A stretch of DNA of 64,000 nt, from positions 186,001 to 250,000 of the forward strand of contig JAUIFF010000004.1 in assembly GCA_030429545.1 (NCBI GenBank), given 5' to 3'. Every line of letters starts with the position of its first letter. The first letter of the stretch is position 1. Shown piece by piece: positions 51,700 through 62,383 of the stretch. Both the position numbers and the translations under genes were made by a program. The notes below the pieces were generated by a model. It searched no databases, had not been told where the DNA came from, and saw nothing but the letters and a program-made list of their open reading frames with translations. Origin of the DNA: Polyangia bacterium. Lineage in GTDB: Bacteria > Myxococcota_A > Polyangia > Nannocystales > Nannocystaceae.

Positions 51700-53286
51700 T
51701 TATTGGAGCCAGCTGTCGATGGTGTCGACCGCGGGTGCGACCCATCCCATTTGCAAGTGGTTGATGCTCGAAAGCACCTCGGTTGCCACGGCCTGCCCGA
51801 TCCCAACCGTGTGGCTGCAGCTGTCGACAAACACGACGCCATCGCTGGGCCCACCGATTTCGTTGGGGATCCCGAGCATCATTTGGGACATGTCCCCCGG
51901 GTCGATCTCGCTGCAAAGCAGGTAGGTCTCGACGCTCGCGGGTACCGGAGACTGCAGCATGTCGGCGATCAGCGAGCCCTGGTCGATGGCAAACGCAATG
52001 CCCTTGCCGCGGGTGGTGGTTCCTTGATGCTGCATCGATTCGCCGTAGTAGGTCGAGTCGCTGTCGACCACCGCAAACTCACCGTTGCCGAAGTTGGCCG
52101 TGCCGGTGAGGGGAAAGCTGTCGTCTAGACGGGCGAGCATCTGGCGTTGCCCGACATAGAAGTCACCCATGGCCGTTTTAAGGATCGAATGCTCCGAACG
52201 GTCTTGCCACTGGCCGAACAACAACAACTCCTCGTGGGGAGAGGGCGAGTTGAGCATGCCACCGTAGTCGGGAAAGATCTGTGGGGCCGTGGCAGCTCCC
52301 CAGCGGTAGATGTAGTCGAGGCCCTTGTTGGGACCGCCGATCAAGATGAGCTTGCGGACATCTTGGGCATAGGGCGTGCCCCAGGGCTCTCGCACATCGG
52401 TGGTGTACAGCCGCGCGGCGAATGCCCCCTTGGACCATCCAATAAGGTCGACCTGCTCGTTCGCAGTACGGGCGCGGATGATGCGAATCGCCTGGTGGAT
52501 TTGCTCGGCCCAATGCAGGTTGTTGCCCTGGCCATGGGGGTACATCACGGCAAACACCGGGACGTCGCGGTCGACCAAATCCTGCATGAGCCCGGTTGCC
52601 GGGCACGATTGCTGGCCGCAGCCGTAATCGCCGAGCATACCGGGGTTGGCAAACGCCCGGTCAGGACTGTCGGTTGCCCCGTGGGCGAGCAGCACTGGAG
52701 TGCGCGAGTTCTCGGCCCATTTCGGTGCATAGTAAACTAAAAACACGCGGCGGTCGGGGACGGGGTCGTTGTCGAAGTAGGTCAGGTGGGGTTCGAGCAG
52801 GTGACTGCGCGGCCCGGGAAAATAGTCCTCGGGTGGCATTTCTGTGTCGACCATGCGCCAGCGTTCAACCCGGGCCCAGCCGTGGGCGGGATCGTCAAAC
52901 GCTTCTTCGAGGACAAGCCCAGCGAGCGGGTCGGGGTCGCCATCGGTTGTGGTTTCGCTGGTTTCTCCCTGCGTGGCCTCGGTTTCACCGGCCGTCGTCG
53001 GGCCGGTTGTGGGGCCAGTTGTGGGGCCAGTTGTGGGGCCAGTTGTGGGGCCAGTTGTGGGGCCAGTTGTGTCCGCGGTCGTGTCACCCGTCCCGTCAGT
53101 GGGATCGCCGGTTGGGCCGGCGGTATCCGAGCCCACTGCCGTCTCGCTGGTGTCGCCGGTTTCGCCCGTAGCAGCCGTCTCGCTCGCAGCGGTTTGCGTG
53201 CCCGTGCCCGAACAGGCGATGGGTGTGCATGCAAGTATGGCGGCAAGCAAGGTGAGCGGTGCGGTTGCGAGGTTGGGCCGACGCAT
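51700..53286 (-). CDS. lipoprotein alpha/beta hydrolase with Thr/Gly linker
   Basis: 528 residues. Signal ends PIACSG (Cys25 or nearby). A long Thr/Ser/Asp linker (to about 130) holds six TTGP repeats. The catalytic domain from about 150 shows an alpha/beta hydrolase: VLLAHGATDSP near the oxyanion, LIGWSKGAFAARL (G-x-S-x-G nucleophile elbow) and VRKLILIGGPNKG after it. The serine hydrolyses an ester or related bond. It resembles extracellular lipases or polyester hydrolases by size, but the substrate is unknown. It lies downstream of the repressor region on the same strand, with a 250-bp AT-rich gap, so is a separate unit. Confidence 0.75.
   Translation of the reverse strand: MRRPNLATAPLTLLAAILACTPIACSGTGTQTAASETAATGETGDTSETAVGSDTAGPTGDPTDGTGDTTADTTGPTTGPTTGPTTGPTTGPTTGPTTAGETEATQGETSETTTDGDPDPLAGLVLEEAFDDPAHGWARVERWRMVDTEMPPEDYFPGPRSHLLEPHLTYFDNDPVPDRRVFLVYYAPKWAENSRTPVLLAHGATDSPDRAFANPGMLGDYGCGQQSCPATGLMQDLVDRDVPVFAVMYPHGQGNNLHWAEQIHQAIRIIRARTANEQVDLIGWSKGAFAARLYTTDVREPWGTPYAQDVRKLILIGGPNKGLDYIYRWGAATAPQIFPDYGGMLNSPSPHEELLLFGQWQDRSEHSILKTAMGDFYVGQRQMLARLDDSFPLTGTANFGNGEFAVVDSDSTYYGESMQHQGTTTRGKGIAFAIDQGSLIADMLQSPVPASVETYLLCSEIDPGDMSQMMLGIPNEIGGPSDGVVFVDSCSHTVGIGQAVATEVLSSINHLQMGWVAPAVDTIDSWLQ
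53000..53072. repeat. 12-bp tandem repeat encoding TTGP units
   Basis: GGGGCCAGTTGT repeats six times in a row with almost no differences inside the hydrolase gene, encoding T-T-G-P on the minus strand. Because the units are nearly identical, this part of the linker must be of recent origin or prone to length change. Confidence 0.85.
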
Positions 53287-53424: not shown

Positions 53425-55017
53425 CTAGCCGGCGTAGGAGTCGTCCTGTTCGATCTTGCTGAGCACCCAGTCAAACTCGCCGGCGGTGAGGTGGGCCCCG
53501 CAGTATTCGCACGAGCCGGCCATGCCGATATTGAGGGGGGCACCACAGTTGGGACAGTTGTGGTCCAGGCGCGGTGCACCGCGAACTTTGGCCGCGCGGA
53601 TCAACGTCCAATACTCGGTGTAGGCGCGATTGTTGGTGCGGCTGCCCGAGACTTTGAGCCCGTCGGATTGGCGCACGGTGTAGTCGCGACCGGTCGCGTA
53701 GATCCGTAGGGTCACGGCATCGAAGTGGCGGTCGCGGATGGTTTTAACGACCTCGGTCCGCTTGACGTGCATGCCTTCGAGGACGTTGCGCAGGCCTTGG
53801 TTGCGGTAGGCGTCGATCCAGTACTGCAAATAGTTGTAGAGGCCATCGGAAACAAACGGGCGCACGGCGGTGAGGTCGAGCGCGGTCCAGCCGGCATTGA
53901 GCTCGGTGTAGATCATTCGCAGGCGGGCGGCCAGGCTTTCGCGCGTCACCTCTGGGTCGTCGCGGTGGAGCTTGGCAAACCGTTGCTCATACATCGGTTG
54001 GAACACGGTCGCCTTGTCGTTGCCGTATTCCGCGACGTTTTGGGTGAGGACCGGGGGGCGTTGTTCCTGGTGGTCGAGGCCGATCGACGACACGCTCCAG
54101 TCGAAGGTGCCACCCTCGACCGCCTGGTTGCAGTGGGCACAGCGATTTTGGTCGGAGGCGACATAGGGCGCACCACAGCTTGGGCAGTGCAGGCTGCGGG
54201 CGCCGGTGGGTGCCTCGGTTTGCACGGTGGCATCGCGGATCAGCAGCCAGCGCTCACGCAAATAGTAGGTGTGTAAATCGTCGGGCGTCCCGGCGGTGAG
54301 GTTGGCCTCGAACTTGAGCGTGACCTGAACGCGGTTGGGTTGGCCATCCCGCATGCGCGCGGTGTCGGGGATCACCACACTGTGTATATGCATGGCGCCG
54401 ATCACCACGTTGGACACCGGGACGTCTCTTGGCTGTCGGCGTTTGAGTTGTTTGCGCGCCCGCGGGCTGAGGTAGGGGGCGAGCGCTGCCATGGCTGCGG
54501 GATTGGCCCGGGCCTGGTGAGCTTGGGCGAACAGGCGGTAGGCAAAGTCCTCAAACAGCACCTGCGAAAATTCCGGGTCGAGTTTTCGCAGCCCGTTGAG
54601 ATTGGACACCCGGCTGACCGAACCCGCGGCAAACAGCTCCATGTCCTCGGGGGTCGCCGCCATGGCGCTGTCCCACGACTCTTTGTCGGTCTTGGCCTTG
54701 TTGAAGAACACAAACAGCATGATGCCGACCGTCAGCGGAATGCCGATGATCGGGTGTTCGAGGCATAGCCAAATCAAAAACACGATGGCATCGCCGTCAC
54801 CACCACCGCCACTGCTGCTGTAGGAACTGCTCGAGCCGCCACTGTAGGACGAACCACCGCCCGAGTACGAATGCCCGCCGCCGGGGCGCAGTGTTTCGGC
54901 AAGAACTTCGGGACAGGTAGATGCGTAGACCGCGACCACGACGGCAGCGGTAAAAAGCCGCGGGTAGCGGACCAGGGCCCAAAACACGGGGGAGCTGAGA
55001 TAGCTTGGGTTGTTCAC
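53425..55017 (-). CDS. Tim44-like membrane protein with two zinc ribbons
   Basis: 530 residues. A signal-like N-terminus (about 20-40) and a Gly/Ser/Tyr-rich stretch (GGGHSYSGGGSSYSGGSSSS) precede a membrane span (FLIWLCLEHPIIGIPLTVGIMLFVFF). Two Tim44-like (NTF2-like) halves follow (about 125-280 and 330-500), each ending in a zinc ribbon: CPSCGAPYVASDQNRCAHC and CPNCGAPLNIGMAGSCEYC. The halves look like an internal duplication. Tim44-like proteins often tether to membranes. Its ATG overlaps the stop of the TPM gene (ATGA), so the two are translated together. A TGYANNTRCA site (54383) codes for M-H-I-H. Confidence 0.72.
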   Translation of the reverse strand: MNNPSYLSSPVFWALVRYPRLFTAAVVVAVYASTCPEVLAETLRPGGGHSYSGGGSSYSGGSSSSYSSSGGGGDGDAIVFLIWLCLEHPIIGIPLTVGIMLFVFFNKAKTDKESWDSAMAATPEDMELFAAGSVSRVSNLNGLRKLDPEFSQVLFEDFAYRLFAQAHQARANPAAMAALAPYLSPRARKQLKRRQPRDVPVSNVVIGAMHIHSVVIPDTARMRDGQPNRVQVTLKFEANLTAGTPDDLHTYYLRERWLLIRDATVQTEAPTGARSLHCPSCGAPYVASDQNRCAHCNQAVEGGTFDWSVSSIGLDHQEQRPPVLTQNVAEYGNDKATVFQPMYEQRFAKLHRDDPEVTRESLAARLRMIYTELNAGWTALDLTAVRPFVSDGLYNYLQYWIDAYRNQGLRNVLEGMHVKRTEVVKTIRDRHFDAVTLRIYATGRDYTVRQSDGLKVSGSRTNNRAYTEYWTLIRAAKVRGAPRLDHNCPNCGAPLNIGMAGSCEYCGAHLTAGEFDWVLSKIEQDDSYAG

Positions 55018-55652
55018 GCCACCGCCTCCCGGTCATCGATGTCGTCGGGAAGTTCGTTGACGTCGTCGGCTGCCCGCGGGAGTTTTTCGCCGAGGATGGG
55101 GCCCAACGTTTTCAGTGCATCTGCAATTTTGACGACATTGGAGCCGGCCAGCATCTCGACACGCAGCGTGCGAACGGCTGCCTGCCAAGCCGGGTTGTCC
55201 GCGGTTGCCTGGGCCACCGCCGCATCGCACACGATTTCGATGGTGCGTTCAAAAATCGAGATGTACACCAGCATCCCGGTGCGTCCCTGGGTCAGGCGCA
55301 CACCCTTGGCAAAAAACGTCGACTGGGCTGCCTCGCGGACCCTCGCCCGGCGCCCGAACTCGGTGGTGAACAACCGCTGGCACGGCGGGAAGTTGTGGCA
55401 GACGATGCCGACAATCAGGCCGGCGAGTGCCGGGTCGATCAAAAACCAGTGCAGGGCAAACGGAGCCTCGGCATACAGCAGCACCGCGGACATCAACAGC
55501 GAGGCGATGAATGCCGCGGTGACGGTCGTATGGCTGTAGTTGCCGGAGCGTGGTCGCACCGAGATCACGACCTCGGCACTGGAATGCGATTCGATCGATT
55601 GAATCGCCGCCTTTAGGGCCTGCTTGCCCCCTTCGTCTAGAAATCGCGCCAC
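55014..55652 (-). CDS. TPM/TLP18.3-like domain membrane protein
   Basis: 212 residues from a GTG at 55652 (RFLDEGGKQALKAAIQSIE). The first part (SIESHSSAEVVISVRPRSG) recalls the TPM-domain start. Two spans follow (AAFIASLLMSAVLLYAEA and LIDPALAGLIVGIVCH). The second half (TGMLVYISIFERTIEIVCDAA) matches the TPM end pattern, that is, a TPM fold interrupted by two spans. Function in bacteria is unclear (TPM proteins may be repair or phosphatase-like). Overlap with the Tim44-like gene suggests a working pair. A TGYANNTRCA site (55116) reads I-A-D-A-L. Confidence 0.65.
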   Translation of the reverse strand: MARFLDEGGKQALKAAIQSIESHSSAEVVISVRPRSGNYSHTTVTAAFIASLLMSAVLLYAEAPFALHWFLIDPALAGLIVGIVCHNFPPCQRLFTTEFGRRARVREAAQSTFFAKGVRLTQGRTGMLVYISIFERTIEIVCDAAVAQATADNPAWQAAVRTLRVEMLAGSNVVKIADALKTLGPILGEKLPRAADDVNELPDDIDDREAVA

Positions 55653-55889
55653 GTGCCGGAGATGATAAACAATTCGCCGGCGCGATCGATTGTCATTGCC
55701 ACGGATTGTGTTCGGCAATCGGGGGCCGGCGCGGTATCGACAAGCCTAAATCCGCGCAAACAACTTGTATTGTCAAAACAATCGAGCACGTGCGCGGAGA
55801 TTGCTGGCGATGCTCGAAAAAGGGCGAGCATGACGGTGTTACGAGTAGGGTGACAGGCCGGGGGCAAACCGGCTAACGTCCCCCCAAGC

Positions 55890-57578
55890 ATGGCTGCGAC
55901 CGAGCCCCTGCATGTACGCGACGCCCTCGACAAGTTGGTCAATCAGTTTTCTGACCCGCTGTCCTTTTTAAGAGAGCTCATCCAAAACGCCCTCGATGCG
56001 GGGAGCCGTGAGGTCGACGTTTGGGTCGACTTTGAGGAGGGCGAGGGGGCCAAGCAAACGCCGCAAGATCGCGGTGTCATGATCCTCCGGGTCGAGGACT
56101 GGGGCGAGGGCATGACCCGTGAGATCATCGAAAAACGTCTCACCCGGCTGTTTTCCTCGGCCAAGGATGGCGACCGGACCAAGATCGGCAAGTTTGGCAT
56201 CGGCTTTGTTTCGGTGTTTGCGTTGGAGCCCGATGCTGTGGTGATCGACACCTCCCGCGAGGGGGAGCACTGGCGGATTGTGTTTGACCGCGAGCGCAAC
56301 TACTCGCTGATCGAGCGTGACGAGCCGGTCGAAGGCACCAAGATCCGGGTGATGGTCAACGCCACCCGGGCCCGCGCCGAGGAAGTTCGCACCCGGGCCC
56401 GCGATGTCGTGCGCTACTGGTGTAAGCACGTCCGCGGCGAGATCCACTTTCAGGGCGACCTCGTCAGTCAAGCGTTTGCGTTGCAGGCCCCGTGTGTGGT
56501 CGAGCGCCCGGGCGAGGAGACGGCGATTGTCGTCGCCCATCCGCAAGAGCCCGGTGAGGGCATTCAGGGGTTTTACAACCGCGGCCTCACGCTCATCGAG
56601 CACCGCGACCAGGTGATCCCCGGGCTTGCGTTTAAGGTCTCGTCGGTTCGCTTAGAGCACACGCTCACCCGCGACAATGTCATTGAAGATGCCGGCTACC
56701 GGGCCTGCCTCAAGCAAGTACGTGAGCTCGCTGCGGGGCCGTTGTGCAAGCAAGTATTCGCGATGCTCGACGCCCACGTCACCCAGGGCAAGCACCCCGA
56801 GTTGCGTGAGTACCTCTACCGGGCGGCGGCCTGGCATGTGCAAAACACCAGCAGCTTTCCCCGCGAAGTACTTGCGAGTTGTGTGTATACGCAACCATCC
56901 GGGGCGGCTGTGCGGCTCGACCAGCTGATCGCCGCCTGCAAAAAAAAGCGGGTGCTGTTTGCCGGTGCTCGCAGCCCCTTGACCGATGCGGTCGAGGCCA
57001 CCGGCGAGCTGATTCTGGCCCTCAAACCCCCCACGGAACTCAGCGAAGAGGCCCAGGTTATTCAGCCCGATGAGCCCGAGGCACTGTTGCTGTTACATGC
57101 ATTTGCGGACATGGCCGGGCTCAAGTCGAAGTTGCGGTGGTTGCCGCAGGAATTGTGTCAGCCCCAGCCCCCGACCGGCGCGGCCGAGGCCCGCGACTTC
57201 AACCCGCTGCTCGCCGGCGTCGCCGATATGATCCGCGAGTACGGGGGTAAGCTTTCGGGGGTGGTGTTTGGCCACTTCGACTATCCGGAGTCGGGCATTT
57301 CCCAGCAGGTGGCCATTACCCAGCACGCCCTCGGTGAACTCAGTTCGGTGAGCGAGGTCAAAACCCTGGGCATGTCGCTGTTTTCCCGCCGTCGGATGTT
57401 GGTGCTCAACGCCGATCACCCGGCCGTGATTCGCTGCATGGAGCTGGCCCAGCACGAGCCGGAGTTTTCGAGTTATTTGCTTGTCAAACTATTTTTCCTC
57501 GGGGATAGGCTCGATCCAAAGGTCGATGCTGCCCTCGCCAAACACGCGATGGAGCGAAGGTGTCGCAGGTCGATCTAG
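55890..57578 (+). CDS. GHKL ATPase (Hsp90-like N-domain) protein, first of pair
   Basis: 562 residues. The ATPase domain covers about 1-215: the N box ELIQNALDAG (Asn33, Asp36), the G1 box VEDWGEGM (Asp70, Gly72, Gly74) and the G2 box GKFGIGFVSVF (Gly101-105). All metal- and ATP-binding residues are present. The domain resembles HtpG and MutL/sacsin-type ATPases. The rest (about 240-562) includes QALDVH-like helices, but I see no HtpG middle- or C-terminal domain; length is shorter than HtpG (624). The last 19 bases overlap the start of the giant downstream gene, so the two are probably made together. Confidence 0.8.
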   Translation: MAATEPLHVRDALDKLVNQFSDPLSFLRELIQNALDAGSREVDVWVDFEEGEGAKQTPQDRGVMILRVEDWGEGMTREIIEKRLTRLFSSAKDGDRTKIGKFGIGFVSVFALEPDAVVIDTSREGEHWRIVFDRERNYSLIERDEPVEGTKIRVMVNATRARAEEVRTRARDVVRYWCKHVRGEIHFQGDLVSQAFALQAPCVVERPGEETAIVVAHPQEPGEGIQGFYNRGLTLIEHRDQVIPGLAFKVSSVRLEHTLTRDNVIEDAGYRACLKQVRELAAGPLCKQVFAMLDAHVTQGKHPELREYLYRAAAWHVQNTSSFPREVLASCVYTQPSGAAVRLDQLIAACKKKRVLFAGARSPLTDAVEATGELILALKPPTELSEEAQVIQPDEPEALLLLHAFADMAGLKSKLRWLPQELCQPQPPTGAAEARDFNPLLAGVADMIREYGGKLSGVVFGHFDYPESGISQQVAITQHALGELSSVSEVKTLGMSLFSRRRMLVLNADHPAVIRCMELAQHEPEFSSYLLVKLFFLGDRLDPKVDAALAKHAMERRCRRSI

Positions 57579-60500
57579 TCAACCAGATGGTTTCTGAGTT
57601 GCGCGAAGAGGGTGCTGTTCGTGCGCAGGGTGGATTTACCATCGACAGCGAGAAGGCCCGCGACAAGATGCGGCAGTTTCAGCTGGCCGTGCCCCAGGAG
57701 TATGTTTTGTTGCTGGTACAAGCAGCGGTCCTCAAGGGCGCCAGCCAGATCGCGTTTGATATCGACGCCGACGATGTGCGGATGAACTTTGACGGCGAGC
57801 CGTTTACCCGCGACGACCTCGAAAACATCTACGGAGCGATGTTCGTCGATCGCACCGACCGGCAGATCCACGCCCGCCAGGAGCTGGCGATGGCCCTCAA
57901 CGCGGCCATGGCCCTCAACCCGCGTTACATTCGCCTGCTCAGTGGCAACCGCGAAAGCCGGGTGTTTTTGCAGATACAACCGGGCAAGGACGATCTACTC
58001 AAGCAAGCCGAACCCAATGTCGAGGGCACCTGGATCCACATCAAGCAACGCTTTCGTCCAGGGCTCGTGCTCGAGTTTGTCCGCAACCTCCGGGGCAAGG
58101 TCGCCGAGGAGGTTCACCTGCGCGATCGCTGTCGCTACAGCGGGGTGGCAATTACCCTCGACGGCAAGCAAATTTCGCAGGGCACCGAGCTCGAAGGGGT
58201 GGTCGCCACGGTACGGGTGGCGGGCGAGGGTGTTGCCGGCATGGCCGGGTTTGAACCGCCGACCCGCGACGACGACGATGCCCCGCGGGTGCCGGCGGTG
58301 ATCGAAATTCTGTGTAACGGGGTGTCGCTCACCCGCCACGAAGACCCCAACCTGCCGCGATTTTTTCATGCCCTGGTCGACGGCTCACACCTGCTCAAGG
58401 ACGTGTCGCAACGCGATGTCGTGCGCAACGACGCCTACGACCAGCTGATGGATGCGGTGCGCGATGCCGCCGATCGGGCGTTTGTGGTGCTGGTCAAGGC
58501 GGCCAGCGAGGGCGAGGTTCCCAAGTGGGTGCGCGGTGTGGTCATCAATTGGTTGTATGAGCATGCAAATCAGGTGCGTGAGCAGACAGAGCCCGTCAAG
58601 CAGGACACACCGCTCGCGGCTGCGCTGAGTGTCCCGCTGTGGCCATTGGTTGGCGGCTCCACGGCCGCGACCGCCGAGCTGCTGGCGGCCAGCGATATCC
58701 ACTACACCGACAAGGACTTTGAGGGCTATTTGCCCGAGGACTTAAGCCAGGTGGTGTTGCTCGACAACACCAACATCGACGACCTGTTTCACGAGTTGTT
58801 TGGCAGCGCGGCCAAGTCGGTGACGCGGCGGATCGAACGGGCCTATCGCCATGAGCTCAACCGCCGCAAGTGGCGTGAACGGGTGCATCCGCCCCACCTC
58901 GGCGAGGGGATCTTTATCGCCACCGCGGTGATCGTCGACGACGGTGTCGGCGGCCAGATCGGTCTGCGCGAGATGACCACCGACCTCGCCGAAGTGCGGA
59001 TGGTCAAGGACGGTTGTGTGTTGTTCGAGGCCTATCCCCGCGGGCCGGTGGCCGGGCTTTTGGGGGTGGTCGTTGCCGACTTCGAGCCCACCAGCGCCTA
59101 CGACAACGCCCGTCATAATCGTGCATATGCACGGGCATTGATGGCGTTTTTGTGTGCGGTCGAACGCCTGATGGCGACCGCCGCCCAAACCGAGTTGGCC
59201 GCCTCGGGCCGCTCGGCGGTGTTGCGGCGGACCATCCTCGATTACCTCGCAGCCGTGACAGAGGAGGAGTATGCCCTCGATATCTTCGAGGAGTTTGGAT
59301 TTTCGCGGACCCACGCCCGGCGCCAGCTCAGCAGTGTCGACATCGATGTTTGCCTGCCCAAGTGGAACCTCGACGGGGATTCGCCACACCCGTTGACCAC
59401 GGTGCCGCTGTTTCGCACCCACGCCGGCAAGACCGTCAGCCTGCAACACATTCACGCACTTGCCAGCAAAGACTCGCGGATGCCGTGGTTGCCCACGGTG
59501 GCCGACAGGTCGGGCCTTTCGGGGACCAGCGAGTTGCCGAGCGAGCTACTGCTGCTCGACCCCGTCGAGCGAACCGTTTTGCTGCGCTTGATCGGCCACG
59601 AACGGTTGATGGACTTCTCGCCGGTGTTGCGTACCTTGCAGCACCAGGCCCGGTTTTTACGCAAGCCACGATTGCCCCTGAGCCTGCGCCACGAAGCCGA
59701 GGTCTCGGTCGAGTTTCGGTGGGAGAGTTGCAAGGGGGTCATTGGTCTTCGCCGGGCCGATGTCAATCTCTCGAACGCCGAGTTTCGAGCCGAGATTTCG
59801 GTGCGAAAATTTCACCGCGGCCTGGCCGAACTCAACCCGCGGACGCTGTTGCCGGGCATTGTCGCGGTGGTCAACGACGACGAGGTCGAGACCAATGAGG
59901 AGTGGACCGACCTCGCCTCGCGCCAGCCGAAATGTCTCGACGTGGTGTTGGGCGAAGTCCCGGGGTTGCTCAAGGCCGCCCTCGAGCGCCGGTTTCATCG
60001 CCGTGAACTCCACGCCTATTTGTTTGTCGCGCTGATGGCCATGCTCCCCCAGGAGCTATTCCCCACGCTACTCAAGTTGCATGAGCAACAGGATTTGGCG
60101 GCCTATCAGCAACTCATCGAGCTGACCAAAACCTACTCGCTTTCGCAGGTGGCCAAGGCCATTGCCCATGTCGAAAAGCGCGGTCGCGAGTTGACCCCGG
60201 CCACGGTCGAGGCCTCGCTCAAAAATCGCAAGGTTCGTGCCCGTGGCGGCGGCCCGCTCGACCACCTGCGCGTGGGGATGATGGTGTATCTGCAACAGCT
60301 GATCCAGTTGCCGATGTTGTTGACGACCGCCGGTAACCAGCTGTGCCTCAACGACCTGTTGGCAGCCTACCGCGAGCAGGGGGTGATTTACTACATTCGC
60401 CGTGAACTGCCCGGCAATGTCGAATACGACGGTGATGAGCGCTTGGTGCTCAACCTCGACTCGCACCAACGCCGGCGCTTGCAAGCGGTTTTCGGGGCTA

Positions 60501-62383
60501 ACAAGCTGGTCAACTCCCTCGATTTTATTGAGTCCTGGCAGCGCAAGCGCAGGTTTAATCTCAAGCGCGAGGTTTCGGCGCTGACCGTGTCTGAGCGCGA
60601 TGCCGTGGTGATGATCGACATCAATACCGGGGGATTTACCGGCCAACTCGGGCTGCGGCGCTGGAACTTTCGCGAGCCCGAGGGGGCGCGCATTAAGGTT
60701 TGTTGTACACGCAGGGAAGTTTGCAGCCTCGATCTGTCACTCGACATCGCCCTGGTCGGGATTCTCAATCACGACAAGCTGCAGACCAACGACACGTTTA
60801 CCGGGGTGACACGCAAGCAGGCCGATACGATTCGCAAGTTGTGCAAGGATTCGGTCGAGGAGCTGGTCGCCGCGCTTGCGAGGCGCTGGAGTGCGTTGTC
60901 GATTTCGGGCGACCACACCGTGACCGACCTCGCTCGCCACGTACTCGCTAAGCGTGCCCGCCGGGTCAATGGCGACCGCCGGCGACTGATGCGAGCCACC
61001 ACCCGCAAGCTCGCCGAGTTGCCGATTTTTCGCGACATTGAGGGCTCACAACACACGCTGGCCGAGCTCGTCGACAGCTACAAACAACACGGGGCGATCT
61101 ACTACGTGGCCTCGCAGTGGCGGGCGGAGGTACCCGACGAGCATCCGGTGATCGACGCCCGCGAGGCTGTGTTGGCCGACCTGTCGCAGTTGTTTACGGT
61201 GGTCACCGACTACGAAGGTGTCTATCGCGAGCAGCAACAAACCCGGCGGCGACGCGAGAACTCGCCCAAGATGCTGCGCAAGGCACCCGACCACGCGGTG
61301 GCCAGTGTGCGGATCAAAGAAAAGGGGCTCGACGGCTGGATTTGGCTACCCTCGCGGGTTGTTGGCGACGCGGTTATCGGGTTTGGCGATAGCGAGTTTG
61401 TGGTCGAAAAGCGCACCGGTGAGGGGCACTACCCGTGTCGTGGTGCGATCGTTGTTGACGAGTCGCGGATTCGTGGCTCGTGGGAGTTTGTCCAGCTCGC
61501 GCGCAAGCAGGAGATCGCGGTGAAGAAGGCGATCAATCGCCTGTATCGCGAGGTTATGGCGGGGTACGAGCGGGCCCACGAAGCCAAGGGCGCGGGGACC
61601 TTGGAGGCCCGGATACGCGATGCCTTTGGCGAGCATGTATCTGCACAGATCGTTGCCGGGTATCTGCGCAAGGCGCTGCTCAACCTGTTTCGTGCGGGGG
61701 CCGATCCCACGCGTTCGCGCGAGCGAACGTTGTACCGACGCATGCGCAACGCGCCGCTTTTGTCCCTTCGAAACGGACGGATGATCTCACTCGAGGTTGC
61801 CCTTGAAGAGCGCCCGGCGGATCTCAGCCACTTGCAGCTGTGGCCACCCACACTCATCCGCGAACAGATCGAGGCGCAGCCCGAGCCCGAGCCCGAACCC
61901 GAGCCCGAGCCCGAGCCCGAGCCAGCGAAGGCCCAGCCCGAGCCCGAAAAGCCGAAGGCCAAGCCGAAGCGCCGGCGTAAAAAGAAGGCTAAACACAAGC
62001 CCAAGCCACAGCCCAAGCCCGAGCCGCCGCCGCCACCACCCGAGCCCGAGCAGTTGTTGCTCGAGGCCGTGCGCAACGAGTTGCGAGTGCTGCGACGCTC
62101 CGATAAGGCGCTGCTGAGTAATCGCCAGCTCGAGCGTCTCGACTACGGGTGTACGACCGAGGAGGTCATCGCCTACGACGATGGCGGCCAGGTGACGATC
62201 AACACCCTCCACCCGGTGGTGGCTGCCGCAGTTGAAAAACGGGCCGCCGATCCGCTGCTCGTGAGCATGGTAACTTCGGCTGTATATACATTCTTAAACC
62301 TGATCCACGAGCAGATCGAAGATCGCCACGAATTGGTGTTTCACGAGCTCCACGCGAGCCACGTGTTGTCGACGTTTGGCTGA
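57560..62383 (+). CDS. giant 1607-residue protein with degenerate GHKL N-terminus and four internal repeats
   Basis: 1607 residues. Residues 1-230 look like a decayed GHKL fold: [20 protein letters not shown] sits where ELIQNALDAG should be, with Asn lost to Ala, and MNFDGEPF replaces D-x-G-x-G. Four homologous modules follow (about 450-537, 707-812, 1003-1107, 1244-1337), each with a G..G.IGLR-like start and a [14 protein letters not shown]-like strand ([14 protein letters not shown] in the third). Residues 1439-1497 are Pro/Glu then Lys/Pro-rich. The end (1500-1607) is a helical domain. I know no characterised homologue. The 19-bp overlap with the GHKL gene and the shared fold argue for a joint machine. 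Confidence 0.72.

Follow-up and report, generated by a model that had tools for sequence, protein, structure and literature searches.

The window, by which we mean the whole 64,000-nucleotide stretch that was analysed, derives from a genome of 8.6 Mb and carries near its end two intact open reading frames on the plus strand. Gene A (55890..57578) encodes a protein of 562 aa and gene B (57560..62383) a giant protein of 1607 aa. The two share 19 bp (57560..57578), as had been stated in an earlier interpretation made from the letters alone (the sequence-only reading); B starts with GTG, and a Shine-Dalgarno-like stretch is located within A. Upstream of A lies a divergent TPM/Tim44-like gene pair, in which the gene for a TPM-like membrane protein (55014-55718) adjoins that for a Tim44-like protein (53425-55017, minus strand). 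The latter protein opens with a hydrophobic, Gly/Ser-rich stretch, behind which come Tim44-like domains and zinc ribbons, two of each. A further minus-strand gene (51700-53286) encodes a secreted lipase/thioesterase-like protein with a signal peptide followed by a long Thr/Gly/Pro repeat, (GPTT)n. Downstream of B, on the same strand, a UvrD/PcrA-type helicase gene starts after 60 bp. The named genera found to carry an A-type gene were Plesiocystis, Enhygromyxa, Paraliomyxa and Nannocystis; the organism, a marine-type myxobacterium, therefore most probably belongs to the Nannocystaceae within the Myxococcota, and the Plesiocystis lineage was used as a guide.

To protein A, Pfam assigned a GHKL ATPase domain (HATPase_c_3) and a sacsin N domain and nothing else, while NCBIfam assigned an HtpG N domain. 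The sacsin-type matches passed the cut-offs of both PF25794 (SACS N domain; 42.6 against 32.8 bits) and NF047352 (NCBI sacsin N-domain; 52.6 against 50). The similarity extended well beyond the N domain. When hhalign was used to compare a profile of the window's A subfamily with an HtpG profile, built from E. coli and the sampled genomes, residues 12-517 of A matched HtpG 14-591 (E 4e-21), a near full-length alignment spanning the N, M and C domains. The corresponding limits on the plus strand are 55890-56474 for N, about 56475-57179 for M and about 57177-57575 for C.

The catalytic residues of A were then scored in a set of 103 homologues from Myxococcota genomes. Glu29 and Asn33 (55974..55988, plus strand), the general base and the Mg-binding Asn of the GHKL fold, were present in 102/102 aligned homologues, the D70-W-G-E-G-M box (56097..56114, plus) in 102-103 of the 103, and the G100-K-F-G-I-G box (56187..56204, plus) in all 103. 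Wherever they were aligned, Glu29, Asn33, Asp36, Asp70, Gly72, Gly74, Gly100, Gly103 and Gly105 were invariant. The view that the first gene keeps its ATP-binding boxes is thus borne out. Arg261 (56670..56672, plus), in the motif LTRDN, was likewise found in 103/103 homologues and aligned with the Hsp90 segment NVSRE, which makes it the equivalent by alignment of the Hsp90 middle-domain arginine, the only residue that touches the ATP gamma-phosphate (PMC5550277). Judged by these residues and the domain order, A is apparently an intact GHKL ATPase, an Hsp90-like N-M-C protein with predicted activity.

Two observations stand against a plain Hsp90 assignment. The match between the C-terminal domains of A and HtpG (E 3e-5) covered 34 columns only, and neither A nor B matched the Pfam HSP90 model PF00183 at E 1, nor did any paralogue at 0.1, whereas E. 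coli HtpG, run as a control, matched at 1e-126. Since PF00183 was not matched, the pair was classed as Hsp90-like and not as HtpG. An ordinary HtpG is also encoded in the window's genome (L076), so the A/B pair is an addition to it.

Protein B begins with a pseudo-GHKL N domain (residues 1-232; 57560..58255, plus) that matched the N domain of A at E 2e-12, a result in keeping with AlphaFold2 and Foldseek. With a profile of 14 B homologues, residues of about 30-406 aligned with A 9-396 (E 2e-17), in agreement with the earlier proposal that the second gene starts with a GHKL-like fold. The active site, however, is changed: the Asn is replaced by Ala55, the Asp of the DxGxG box is gone and its second Gly is Pro81. 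The sequence-only reading had noted the substitution of Asn by Ala and the loss of the box in the window's B, and both extend to its relatives. The Mg-binding Asn occurred in no B homologue with a residue at that position (Ala in 70, Ser in 7, others), and the D-x-G-x-G-M box in 0/98. The middle-domain Arg was replaced in 68/88. With the Asn and the box lost and the Arg mostly replaced, ATP hydrolysis by B would be very unlikely. As judged from the alignments, the decay is not complete everywhere: the Arg was kept in 20/88 homologues and the general-base Glu in 76/88, although not in the window's B. Since the N domain of B is far nearer to that of A (E 2e-12) than to that of HtpG (E 0.08), B looks like a duplicated, ATPase-dead copy of A.

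To assign the remainder of B, the protein was cut into seven pieces, each of which was set against the three domains (N, M and C) of A and HtpG. Only like pieces matched; every unlike pair, serving as a control for chance, gave E values above 0.01. The first middle domain, M1 (residues 233-445; 58256..58894), follows directly after the pseudo-GHKL domain, matched the middle domains of A (E 3e-10) and HtpG (E 7e-5), and has Gln284 where the catalytic Arg would be. M2 (446-705; 58895..59674) matched the middle domain of A at E 1e-5, as did M3 (706-1000; 59675..60559) at E 2.5e-5 and M4 (1001-1245; 60560..61294) at E 5.5e-7, with M4 also matching HtpG (E 4e-5). M5 (1246-1432; 61295..61855) is the most diverged; its matches were confined to the other repeats (M4 at E 1.5e-10), and neither A nor HtpG was hit directly. 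A low-complexity (PE)n / (KPK)n linker (1433-1494; 61856..62041), with pLDDT below 50 over most of its length, then leads into an Hsp90-type C-terminal domain (1495-1607; 62042..62380) that matched the C-terminal domain of A at E 1.8e-5. All of these features lie on the plus strand.

The five middle domains were mutually homologous (M1-M4 E 6e-18, M2-M3 4e-24, M4-M5 1.5e-10), the weakest pair being M1-M5 at 9e-4. Four homologous modules had been described previously; these are real and correspond, in order, to M2-M5 (E 4e-24 to 5e-5), but a fifth copy, M1, which does not carry their G..G.IGLR signature, had been overlooked. The predicted architecture of B is therefore pseudo-N, five tandem Hsp90 middle domains, a linker and an Hsp90-type C-terminal domain. 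Searches of B against Pfam, NCBIfam, PADLOC and PDB sequences recognised no family. The previous statement that no described family was recognised thus holds for the giant protein at the level of named families, but the pair does fall within the Hsp90 superfamily, as a remote member.

Structure prediction agreed with these assignments. AlphaFold2 was run on B alone in two parts, residues 1-705 and 706-1607, giving mean pLDDT values of 88.8 and 85.0, respectively. The secondary-structure strings revealed a pattern recurring across the modules, namely five strands, a long helix and a second alpha/beta unit. For both parts, the top 50 Foldseek matches in the PDB were TRAP1 or other Hsp90 chains, with best E values of 1e-15 (1-705) and 1.5e-4 (706-1607); structural likeness of the N-terminus to GHKL proteins of the Hsp90/TRAP1 kind was accordingly recovered. 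Since residues 706-1607 include no GHKL domain, the Hsp90 matches of the second part must stem from the middle and C-terminal domains. Overall TM-scores were low (0.4 and 0.2, respectively), as expected where chains differ in the number and arrangement of their domains.

The distribution of the pair was determined with A as bait, the B genes being taken from the neighbourhoods of A; a single-protein B query against genome contigs gave no match. A was present in 50 of 237 sampled Myxococcota genomes (E 1e-12), and at least 343 candidate stretches with relatives were found across 84,980 species genomes. Occurrence was mainly in Myxococcota, with linked B genes also in Elusimicrobia and Eremiobacterota. 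One contig labelled as a Woesearchaeota archaeon MAG (L233) contains three A-B pairs in a row and may be a mis-binned bacterial contig. The window's genome alone encodes four A-B pairs and one solo A.

A linked B on the same strand was found beside 78 of 92 A genes, a count made without the A5 type described below. Of the remaining 14, nine form the A4 clade and two sit at the end of a contig; the other three are true exceptions. With the A4 clade and the contig ends left out, the linkage is 78/81. That the genes stay together in relatives, usually overlapping, is what the idea of a pair called for; the overlaps were mostly 22 bp or 4 bp. In some loci B lies upstream of A, and several loci have more than one B per A or tandem A-B-A-B arrays (L115, L098, L126, L105, L209). 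The A4 clade is monophyletic (9/9, support 0.996) and was never accompanied by a linked B; its loci (L014:7165-8985, L058-L064 and L154) have partly shared neighbouring ORFs. The number of middle domains per B ranged from 1 to 7 by clade, with about four, five (the window's group) and six in separate groups, these counts being approximate in diverged groups where matches are weak. Two apparent A-B fusions were set aside. The first, a single 1908-aa ORF in a Myxococcales MAG (L177:6872-12598), was not accepted as proof of contact, as it comes from one MAG and could equally result from a single-base error where the genes overlap; the second (L172) was dropped because A ends there in ambiguous residues (XX).

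A membrane-type version of the pair, A5/B5, is kept in about ten relatives. A5 (L015:7667-10648, minus strand) has two hydrophobic, probably transmembrane segments and, lying between them within the middle domain, a transglutaminase core (PF01841, E 3e-11) with a conserved GDCD motif. B5 (L015:5963-7579), of 538 aa, appears to be a dead N-M-C protein with a single middle domain, and matched A at E 1e-13. To judge from these sequences, A5/B5 shows that the pairing of an active with a dead protein holds without repeat expansion too.

Hsp90 chains form dimers through their C-terminal domains, and their N domains close upon ATP binding. The A/B pair shares with Hsp90, HtpG and TRAP1 the N-M-C order, the GHKL ATPase residues and the middle-domain arginine (Arg261) of A, and the Hsp90-type C-terminal domain, which A and B each have. 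The known Hsp90s, in contrast, form homodimers in which each chain has a single middle domain and the dimer has two ATPase sites, while here the product of the second gene is dead as an ATPase and contains the middle domain five times. The pair is Hsp90-like in fold and probably also in action. An active/pseudo-ATPase pair of the chaperone type had already been suggested, and this is supported; what had been missed were the Hsp90 middle domains, the C-terminal domains and the N-M-C nature of A.

Because A and B each have an Hsp90-type C-terminal domain and only one ATP site is live, an A/B heterodimer is the simplest reading. The best explanation of the data, to which we give a probability of roughly 0.6, is an Hsp90-like machine of unlike halves, with A as the ATP-consuming partner and B as the source of a long client-binding arm. 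B would have arisen from a copy of A that lost its ATP site while its middle domain multiplied to five. The two proteins would join via their C-terminal domains, and ATP bound to A would close the N domain of A onto the pseudo-N domain of B, the latter possibly acting as a fixed partner or activator. The row of middle domains in B may reach out as an arm for holding clients that are large, long or multivalent, with ATP being spent by A alone.

The A4 clade and the three other A genes with no B are a point against the heterodimer, as they show that A-type proteins can act alone. In a competing reading, A would form homodimers like an ordinary Hsp90, and B would be a separate protein, a giant holdase or scaffold in transient, co-chaperone-like contact with A. 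It is favoured by the A4 clade and by the loci in which two or three B genes accompany one A (L098, L115, L126), which are a poor fit to a simple 1:1 complex. A mere scaffold, however, would have no need of the pseudo-N and C-terminal domains that B keeps, and the gene overlap retained in relatives points to coupled translation. We therefore consider this arrangement unlikely, though it is the strongest competitor of the heterodimer.

The sequence-only reading had also hinted at a defence system, and an anti-phage defence or conflict function, with the GHKL ATPase sensing and B executing or regulating, would suit the patchy spread (50/237 Myxococcota genomes), the several different pairs per genome and the matches of PADLOC GHKL proteins such as TmtA to the N domain of A. 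TmtA, a candidate defence protein, shares with A a GHKL N domain, but of the 1300 residues in its model only about 100 are matched, with no similarity in the rest and no defence context. Pfam recognised no effector domain in A or B. Among 100 flanking genes no Pfam family occurred more than three times, the mixture including no fixed partner and no repeated defence genes; neither a fixed neighbourhood nor a defence island was thus apparent. PADLOC matched two of these 100 genes, both with kinase-type domains, which was judged to be background, and conserved neighbour clusters were rejected since they consisted mostly of ORFs antisense to A and B. Plasmid and phage records gave no match to the pair, and viral contigs gave distant N-domain matches only. 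A defence role is accordingly improbable. Least probable of all is a DNA-related GHKL machine (of the topoisomerase VI, MutL, MORC or SMCHD1 type) that includes the adjoining UvrD/PcrA-type helicase. Despite the position of that gene and weak matches of the N domain to Top6B and MutL, the middle and C-terminal domains matched Hsp90 only, UvrD occurred once in the 100 flanking genes, and in a locus of the same genus (L036) the gene after B runs in the opposite direction and does not have the size of a UvrD ORF.

Returning to the unlike-halves machine, its nearest known counterparts differ from it in several respects. Sacsin is a giant animal chaperone with Hsp90-like SRR repeats (PMC3629688, PMC3710099) and resembles the pair in being a giant Hsp90-derived chain and in the sacsin N-domain models matched by A. 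In sacsin, however, whole N+M units are repeated, three per chain, together with ubiquitin-like, DnaJ and HEPN domains, while in B a single dead N domain is present and the middle domain alone is repeated; Pfam found no DnaJ, HEPN or multiple SRR units in A or B. Pairs of one competent and one ATPase-impaired protomer have been made as hemi-active TRAP1 heterodimers (+/E115A and +/R402A; PMC5550277), and designed yeast Hsp90 heterodimers are among the work cited in PMC11687934. These are laboratory constructs from one gene, while the A/B asymmetry would be a natural trait that is conserved and encoded in the genes. In a search for pseudo-Hsp90 or inactive Hsp90 paralogues that covered the open-access literature, with subscription papers outside its scope, only engineered or mixed heterodimers were found. 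The A/B pair is real and conserved; within the open-access literature it is undescribed.

Experiments on engineered heterodimers have addressed whether the Hsp90 dimer needs two ATPase sites and what purpose its asymmetry serves (PMC5550277, PMC11687934). For TRAP1 engineered in this way, efficient cycling requires firing at both sites (PMC5550277); a machine with one site would need another mode of action, which makes a natural pair of interest. As a tentative wider proposal, held with less confidence than the heterodimer itself, these proteins may be a new class of chaperone machine, made up of natural, obligate single-site Hsp90-like heterodimers. The tandem middle domains of the dead partner (1 to 7, by clade) would determine how long or how multivalent the client arm is, and a membrane-spanning sister would carry a transglutaminase-like domain inserted in the middle domain of its active partner. 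The Hsp90 reading accounts for a family of bacterial proteins, some as long as about 2000 residues, for which Pfam, NCBIfam and the PDB give no sequence match, and the varying number of middle domains would offer a natural series of arm lengths for following how client binding scales. If the reading is true, the occurrence of a live/dead pair across the phylum and beyond would mean that evolution itself has built single-site Hsp90-like machines.
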